Shown piece after piece: positions 13,970-15,867 of a DNA stretch of 32,500 nt. Both the position numbers and the translations under genes were made by a program. Source of the stretch: Candidatus Multivorans thiocomprendens (GTDB taxonomy: Bacteria > Acidobacteriota > Thermoanaerobaculia > Multivoradales > Multivoraceae); assembly GCA_027493375.1 (NCBI GenBank), contig JAPVWO010000074.1, positions 1-32,500 on the forward strand, in the 5' to 3' direction. A model generated the notes under the pieces. That model was not told the DNA's origin, did not search any database, and saw nothing but the letters and a program-made list of their open reading frames with translations. The first letter of the stretch is position 1; every line of letters begins with the position of its first letter.

Positions 13970-15163
13970 ATGAACGCGCCTCCAAGCCTCGCCTTCCGCG
14001 ACCCGATCCACGGCTTCATCGAGGCCGACGAACTCGAAGCCGCGCTCATCCGCACCCGGCCGATGCAGCGCCTGCGTTCGATCCGCCAACTCGGCCTGAC
14101 CCATCTCGTATTCCCCGGCGCCGAGCACAGCCGTTTCGGACACGCCCTGGGCACGATGCACCTGGCCGGCCGCGTCTACGACACCCTGGCCCGGGCCGAG
14201 GACACGCCGCTCGAAGCCGGTCCGCGAGCGCGCGCCCGGCGCCTGGTGCGGGCGGCCGCCCTGCTCCACGACCTCGGGCACGCTCCCTTCAGCCACTGGG
14301 CCGAGGACCTGTTCGAGGACGGCATCGACCACGAGGAGATGAGCCGGCGCCTGCTCGGCGGCCGCGAGATCGCCGCCGCGTTCGAGCAGCACGGCGACGG
14401 GCTCGAGGCCCGCGACGTGATCCGCCTGCTCGGCGACGATCTCGACGGGCCGGAGCGGCTGCTGCCGCCGATCGTCTCCGGCGAGCTCGACGTCGACAAG
14501 ATGGACTACCTCCTGCGGGACTCCCTCTTCTGCGGCGTCCGCTACGGCAACTTCGACCTCGACCAGGTGATCGCCACCGTGCGGCCGCTTTCCCGTGGCG
14601 CCGGCGGCGACCACCGGCTGGGGATCGACGCCGAGGGCCTGCACGCGGTCGAGGGCCTGATCCTGGCGCGCTACTACATGTTCACGCAGGTCTACTTCCA
14701 CGTCACCGGCAAGGCGCTGGAACTCCACCTGAACGAGTGGCTGCACGAACAGGGAATCGCCTGGAGCAGCGACCCGGAACGCTTCCTGGCCAACGACGAC
14801 GGCGAGATGATGACGAGAATGCGACGCTCGGACAGCCTGCACGCGCGGGCGATCACCGACCGCAGCCACTTCCGGCTCGCCCACGAGACCGGCGAGCACC
14901 TGGACGCCGACGAGAAGCGCGCGTTCGAGCAGCGGCTCGAACCCCTGCGCGAGCGCTACGGCAAGAACGTCCTCGTCTCGAACTCGGCAAAGGACCCCCA
15001 CCGCCTCGGCCGCGGCCGGGTGCCGGTCCGCCAGAACGGAGGGAAGCTCGTGCAGCTCGAGGAAGCGAGCCACTTCGTCCGTCACCTCCGGCGCATCGAC
15101 CGCTACCGGGTGTACTGCAGCGACGCCGTCTACTACGAGGTCCGGCGCGCGCTGGGCTCCTGA
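13970..15163 (+). CDS. HD-domain phosphohydrolase, SAMHD1/YdhJ-like
   Basis: The 397-residue protein belongs to the HD superfamily group that contains SAMHD1 and bacterial dNTP triphosphohydrolase relatives. It begins with the family hallmark FRDPIHGFIE, followed by metal ligands H53 in AEHSRFGHALG, H100-D101 in LLHDLGHAPFSHW and an aspartate at about 174-176 in SGELDVDKMDYLLRD. FCGVRYGNFDLDQVI and LILARYYMFTQVYFH also match the family. Likely activity is metal-dependent hydrolysis of a nucleotide phosphate, possibly a dNTP; the exact substrate cannot be read from sequence. The last 31 bases overlap the convergent trmB end. Confidence 0.88.
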   Translation: MNAPPSLAFRDPIHGFIEADELEAALIRTRPMQRLRSIRQLGLTHLVFPGAEHSRFGHALGTMHLAGRVYDTLARAEDTPLEAGPRARARRLVRAAALLHDLGHAPFSHWAEDLFEDGIDHEEMSRRLLGGREIAAAFEQHGDGLEARDVIRLLGDDLDGPERLLPPIVSGELDVDKMDYLLRDSLFCGVRYGNFDLDQVIATVRPLSRGAGGDHRLGIDAEGLHAVEGLILARYYMFTQVYFHVTGKALELHLNEWLHEQGIAWSSDPERFLANDDGEMMTRMRRSDSLHARAITDRSHFRLAHETGEHLDADEKRAFEQRLEPLRERYGKNVLVSNSAKDPHRLGRGRVPVRQNGGKLVQLEEASHFVRHLRRIDRYRVYCSDAVYYEVRRALGS

Positions 15164-15867
15164 TCCGTAGCGGGCCCCACCAGCAGATCGTGCCGGCCGG
15201 CGGGGTGAAGCAGGCTCGACGGACCACCGCCTCGAAGCCGCACCGCGAGCCGGATGATCGGCCGTCCCTCGCGCTCGAACTTCGCCTCGTAGTTCGTCCG
15301 CGGTCCTTCCGGCCAGGCGTCGACCCGCTGCACGTCCACTGCCGGGTGCAGGGAGAGGGTCTCCACCACCGCCTCGCCGTACTCCAGGTGGTCGGTGGCG
15401 AAGAACAGCCGACCCCTCGGCGGATCGAGCAGCGACAGCACCAGGTCGACGGTGCGCGGATCGAGCAACCGCCGGCGGTGGTGCCGGCTCTTGGGCCAGG
15501 GGTCGGGAAAGTAGACGTGGACCGTCCGCGCCATGGCCGCGGGCAGCAGGGTCGCGATCAGGTAGAGCGCCTCGCCGCGAAGCAGGACGACGTTCGAGAG
15601 GCCGCGCGACGCCGCCCGCCGGGCCGCCAGCCGGAAGTACTTCGACACCATCTCGACCCCCAGGAAGGGACGGGCGCCGGCCGCGGCGGCCGAACCGACG
15701 AGAAAACGGCCCTTGCCGAAGCCGAGTTCGACCTCCCAGTCCGAGCGTTCCGCGAACGTCGACCGCAGTTCGGCCCGGCAGGAGGCAAGGTCCCGGAAGT
15801 CGGCGTCCCGGGCGGCCCGTGGACCGCTGGCGGCGCCGGGCCAGACGAGAACGGGCGGCGCGCTCAG
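15133..15867 (-). CDS. trmB: tRNA (guanine-N7-)-methyltransferase, CTG start proposed
   Basis: TrmB methylates G46 of tRNA using SAM. Read from CTG 15867 the product is 244 residues and shows SAM motif I as VELGFGKGRFL (E47-G49-G51-G53), then GVEM (E72), VYFPDPWPKSRHHRRRL, and the C-terminal TNYEAKFEREGRPI signature. The first conventional start, ATG 15651, falls after motif I and would give an inactive stump. Upstream of CTG 15867 the frame runs to a stop at 15957-15955 with no ATG, GTG or TTG. The CTG overlaps the manC stop as CTGA. I see no strong Shine-Dalgarno. The tail has extra residues overlapping the convergent HD gene. Confidence 0.93.
   Translation of the reverse strand: MSAPPVLVWPGAASGPRAARDADFRDLASCRAELRSTFAERSDWEVELGFGKGRFLVGSAAAAGARPFLGVEMVSKYFRLAARRAASRGLSNVVLLRGEALYLIATLLPAAMARTVHVYFPDPWPKSRHHRRRLLDPRTVDLVLSLLDPPRGRLFFATDHLEYGEAVVETLSLHPAVDVQRVDAWPEGPRTNYEAKFEREGRPIIRLAVRLRGGGPSSLLHPAGRHDLLVGPATDQEPSARRTS

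Follow-up and report, generated by a model that had tools for sequence, protein, structure and literature searches.

In prokaryotes, overlaps of four bases (-4 nt) are the commonest coupled arrangement of neighbouring genes, and those described with termination-reinitiation in archaea and bacteria take the form of ATGA or GTGA, in which the final two bases of the start codon are also the first two of the upstream TGA (PMC10666635). Reinitiation after a stop can also take place on codons other than AUG, as demonstrated with a dicistronic reporter in E. coli, in which engineered UAG or GUC codons were combined with matching mutant initiator tRNAs (PMC2268962). CUG itself has been found paired to the initiator tRNA in the bacterial ribosome, in initiation complexes with the M1 variant of tRNA-fMet, a situation that depends on an altered base pair in the anticodon stem, by which discrimination is weakened (PMC11497404). 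In mycobacterial selections, CTG performed poorly as the start of leaderless mRNAs and showed no enrichment in leadered ones (PMC4633059).

The manC-trmB junction analysed here has a geometry like that of the -4 nt pairs, with a four-base, same-strand overlap that takes in the upstream TGA, but the overlap is CTGA, a form that PMC10666635 leaves unmentioned, and the CTG is kept across the genus. Because the proposed start is CTG and not the canonical ATG, GTG or TTG, trmB is filed as a variant of the -4 coupled pair and not as an ordinary member; as such, the trmB CTGA is a conserved and recurrent variant of known -4 coupling. The likeness to the E. coli reporter lies in the putative reinitiation on a non-AUG codon after a stop, whereas the codon in trmB is a natural CUG rather than an engineered one. 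Similarly, CUG would be paired to an initiator tRNA, as in the complexes with the M1 variant, but the genus keeps the GGG/CCC stem.

The manC-trmB junction

The window, that is, the whole stretch of 32,500 nucleotides that was analysed, is the whole of contig C312 of a 4.84 Mb, 339-contig MAG from a genus of Acidobacteriota whose habitat we infer to be marine sponge/coral. It contains the following features at the junction:

16919-15864, minus strand: manC-type mannose-1-phosphate guanylyltransferase, the coupled gene upstream of trmB (Pfam NTP_transferase and ManC_GMP_beta-helix)
15867-15133, minus strand: trmB-type gene, 244 codons plus stop as read from CTG 15867 (open frame)
15867-15864, minus strand: CTGA, overlap of the proposed trmB CTG start with the manC stop TGA (sequence; 17 of 20 congeners)
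15867-15841, minus strand: LSAPPVLVW, N-terminal segment of trmB (alignment with ATG-started N-termini from other families)
about 15732-15700, minus strand: SAM motif I, VELGFGKGRFL, in trmB (translation and ORF list)

CTG is a rare start codon. The coordinates given for it by the first-pass annotation, and its overlap with the manC stop, proved exact in the sequence: CTG at 15867-15865 and the TGA of manC at 15866-15864 together form CTGA at 15867-15864. The trmB frame is open between the stop at 15957-15955 and the stop at 15133 and, as the same annotation had stated, the SAM motif precedes the first ATG, with no ATG, GTG or TTG in the window sequence or its ORF list between the upstream in-frame stop and the motif; the first of these codons in the frame is ATG 15651, downstream of VELGFGKGRFL. 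The sole other NTG in this interval is a CTG located 13 codons before the motif.

The product of trmB matches Pfam Methyltransf_4 (PF02390) with 115.6 bits (cut-off 24) and thus belongs to this methyltransferase fold family. Its best-matching named family is the NCBIfam equivalog TIGR00091 (TrmB; tRNA (guanosine(46)-N7)-methyltransferase), for which the score of 97 bits is below the cut-off of 112.65, so that ‘TrmB-type’ is the safe name. The manC product scored 264 bits against TIGR01479, below the cut-off of 373, with positions 2-350 of 467 matched.

Evidence for CTG as the start codon

Read from the proposed start, the N-termini within the genus are LSAPPVLVW or LSASPTVVW, and those aligned with them from orthologues in other families of the order are MVQPTLLW, MRRPRVWW or MNHPATIW. 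The start column is occupied by CTG in the genus, except for GTG in G013, and by ATG in eight and TTG in one of the outgroups; outside the genus, no manC signature lies near trmB except for one weak pattern match (L025). Codon usage in the trmB frame, calculated per 25 codons, rises from about -16 to -24 before the CTG to about -4 to +4 after it in most genomes, a change from a strongly non-coding to a coding-like pattern. Taken together, the sequence, its conservation and the homologous start position make it highly probable that CTG is the start codon of trmB in the genus; CTG would be the codon used and Met the first residue.

Between its first ten residues and its core, the trmB product has a linker of variable length into which even repeats are inserted, as might be expected if the true start lay further downstream (for example, at the CTG or TTG located 13 codons upstream of the motif) and the N-terminal segment remained untranslated. 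The residues preceding the linker are, however, conserved in the genus and similar to those of the ATG-started orthologues. Furthermore, the codon 13 positions before the motif alternates between the synonymous CTG and TTG in relatives, within conserved sequence, and is thus best read as an internal Leu. A downstream start is accordingly very unlikely.

A REP-like dispersed repeat with a palindrome (GCGGGTCTTCTGACCCGC) is present in frame in the trmB linker of G001, G008 and G006 (L005, L012 and L013) and also near the tgt start of G008. There are three copies in the window, and the sampled DNA contains 176 matches, 31 of which are inside predicted ORFs, with a density of up to about 400 per Mb. 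The repeat may be akin to the in-frame palindromic insertions of Rickettsia.

Conservation and loss of the junction

Among the 21 genomes of the genus, 20 encode trmB; the one congener lacking a match, G014, is 95% complete, and its case represents either a real loss or an assembly gap. The same junction (CTCTGAGCG) is found in 17 of the 20 congeners with trmB: manC ends with CTG CTC TGA and trmB begins with CTG AGC, the two overlapping by four bases. This recurrence is more than chance. In a midpoint-rooted tree of manC and the trmB core, coupled CTG is found on both sides of the deepest split. Since the junction is kept in 17 of 20 congeners, including the 4.63 Mb single-contig chromosome of G019 (OX638294.1), a sequencing error at this site was rejected, and no relative restored an ATG or GTG by way of such an error. 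Interchange of CTGA, ATGA and GTGA among relatives, which the first-pass annotation had suggested looking for, was seen in a restricted form: CTGA is invariant wherever the genes are coupled, and GTG occupies the site in one decoupled species only.

A synonymous test of the final codon of manC revealed no excess conservation of its C and gave no support for selection of C over G. Among 30 conserved Leu codons of manC in the coupled species, 10 are invariant, and CTC accounts for 4 of these. Neutral conservation of synonymous codons is enough to account for the absence of a change from C to G or A, so that we make no case for selection acting on CTG, for instance, for low levels of TrmB, and the persistence of CTG at trmB may be simply neutral.

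In two lineages, represented by G013 and by the sister pair G009/G016, extra sequence separates the manC stop from trmB. In all three genomes, trmB is preceded by an imperfect copy of the junction (GGGCCGCCGGGAACTGCTCTGAGCGC or a close variant) and, as judged from these sequences, the two lineages apparently separated manC and trmB after duplicating the junction; in the midpoint-rooted tree of manC and the trmB core, the two decouplings are separate events. In G013, the junction copy is GTGA, with GTG exactly in the CTG column, and in G009 and G016, CTG is retained and a GTG is found six codons on. On either side of the extra sequence between the two genes (L014, L017 and L020, for G013, G009 and G016, respectively), there is one copy of the terminal 20-30 bases of manC together with the trmB start, and the insert of L020 itself contains a repeated stretch (GTGCGAAGTTGTCCGTGTCGCTGTCGACCAGCCCGC).

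The decoupled genomes bear on the second option raised by the first-pass annotation, in which trmB is read through a frameshift from manC, yielding a ManC-TrmB fusion with no separate trmB start. Such a fusion would be compatible with the trmB frame extending without a stop far into manC in many species (75 to 425 codons ahead of the motif), and with the finding that, in the 17 coupled species, the linker changes length without disturbing the frame relation of manC and trmB. That relation is, however, broken in G009, G013 and G016, in which the distance from the manC stop to the motif is shifted by 26, 56 and 254 nt compared to the common one, none of these being multiples of three, and trmB is nevertheless intact. 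In addition, codon usage in the trmB frame before the CTG is non-coding, no slippery sequence is seen at CTG CTC TGA, and orthologues elsewhere in the order start with ATG at the same place without a clear manC upstream. With the frame relation lost in the decoupled species, ribosomal frameshifting at the manC end is extremely improbable.

Probable delivery of the ribosome to the CTG codon

It is probable that trmB starts at CTG 15867 and that the ribosome arrives there by termination-reinitiation after manC, a route that we infer from the sequence. A ribosome ending manC at the overlapping TGA would stay on the mRNA and reinitiate one base back on the CTG of the -4 overlap, which would be read as formyl-Met. 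As the ribosome would already have been brought to the junction, a codon that serves poorly in de novo initiation could suffice and CTG could persist, whereas separation of manC and trmB would lead to the gain of a stronger start. This first option of the earlier annotation is supported by the conservation of the junction, by an N-terminus homologous to those of ATG-started orthologues and by the two decoupled lineages. The latter fit a coupling that permits CTG in a suggestive manner only, there being just two events and GTG being a common Val codon; the retention of CTG in the decoupled G009 and G016 speaks against it. The poor performance of CTG as a start in mycobacteria (PMC4633059) makes delivery by coupling attractive.

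The anticodon stem-loop of the initiator tRNA (GGGCTCATAACCC) is normal in all 21 genomes, with no changed G-C pairs. A tRNA-fMet variant that weakens discrimination against CUG (PMC11497404) is therefore not the cause, and a relaxed initiator tRNA was rejected. In the 17 species with the coupled junction, Shine-Dalgarno pairing before the trmB CTG ranges from -4.0 to -5.0 kcal/mol, compared to an average of -4.7 kcal/mol for ATG starts and -3.8 kcal/mol for random sites; it is thus weak, no better than at typical starts and only slightly better than random.

Other proposed CTGA starts in the window and the genus

A second CTG start in the window belongs to tgt:

13158-12013, minus strand: tgt (queuine tRNA-ribosyltransferase), with a proposed CTG start (Pfam TGT, 438 bits, from residue 13 of the CTG-started protein)
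13158-13155, minus strand: CTGA, shared by the stop of the lolA-like gene and the proposed CTG start of tgt (sequence; 5 of 11 genomes)
13922-13155, minus strand: lolA-like gene, the coupled upstream partner of tgt, starting with ATG 13922 (Pfam LolA, 45.8 bits, cut-off 23.6)

The next in-frame ATG of tgt is 32 codons on, inside the domain; where tgt lacks such coupling, ATG or GTG candidates are available (G008, G015 and G019). The first-pass annotation had counted three CTG starts in 32 kb, of which tgt is confirmed as the one other than trmB; a third was not identified.

The 222 ortholog groups and the prevalence figures come from seven samples, each of 315-400 kb, together with smaller pieces. 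An automatic start caller applied to these groups was dropped as too noisy, because internal CTG Leu codons in variable N-termini were taken as starts, and was replaced by a search for families without ATG, GTG or TTG near the core and for families with conserved NTGA geometry. Raw overlap counts (118 CTGA vs. 123 ATGA) are misleading, because many CTGA cases are followed by an ATG, either directly (CTGATG) or within a few codons. CTGA often arises by coincidence in a genus of such high GC content, which weighs against the reading proposed for trmB. Two further families among the 222 groups have a CTGA start with no adequate alternative, namely, tgt and a gene that, from its sequence, we tentatively call ccmI-like. 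The CTGA start of the latter is present in 8 of 8 genomes, three of which have a stop in the same frame just 9-12 codons before it. A similar tendency is seen in accC, which has TTG as part of a TTGA overlap in five genomes and GTG in G003 and G013. Group 183 (RNase HII-like by our own reading) has CTGA but also an ATG 15 codons on, and was excluded as ambiguous. In a VanZ-like family (group 208; G017, G001, G008, G010 and G019), located downstream of a gene ending in EKEGFVGPR and a stop, most members have no ATG, GTG or TTG in the approximately 60 codons before the core; judging from the sequence, this family may have a CTG start outside an overlap.

Such a start in the VanZ-like group would agree with direct (de novo) initiation at CTG, in which case the lineage would tolerate this codon generally, and manC and trmB would overlap merely as a by-product of tight gene packing; a stretch resembling AGGAG a short distance before the ccmI-like CTG points in the same direction. 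Yet the three firm cases (trmB, tgt and ccmI-like) are all CTGA overlaps, the initiator tRNA anticodon stem-loop is normal throughout the 21 genomes, pairing at the trmB CTG barely exceeds the random level, and CTG was ineffective in both leaderless and leadered mycobacterial selections (PMC4633059), which renders direct initiation at the trmB CTG unlikely. Under termination-reinitiation, the preferred reading for trmB, a broader proposition can be put forward tentatively: just-terminated ribosomes of the genus might be held to a laxer start-codon standard than those initiating de novo, with CUG possibly serving as a regular start in CUGA overlaps and being replaced or supplemented by GUG or AUG once the genes are separated.

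Implications

If delivery of the ribosome by coupling is true, trmB would represent a natural, conserved case of coupling that permits a start codon which initiates poorly alone, and the related species in which coupling was lost would serve as natural controls. If the CTG reading is right, software limited to ATG, GTG and TTG truncates or misses trmB, tgt and the ccmI-like gene in this genus, and annotation of high-GC genomes should consider CTGA overlaps. Should the laxer standard for reinitiating ribosomes also prove true, coupled genes would constitute a class of start sites missed by gene finders.
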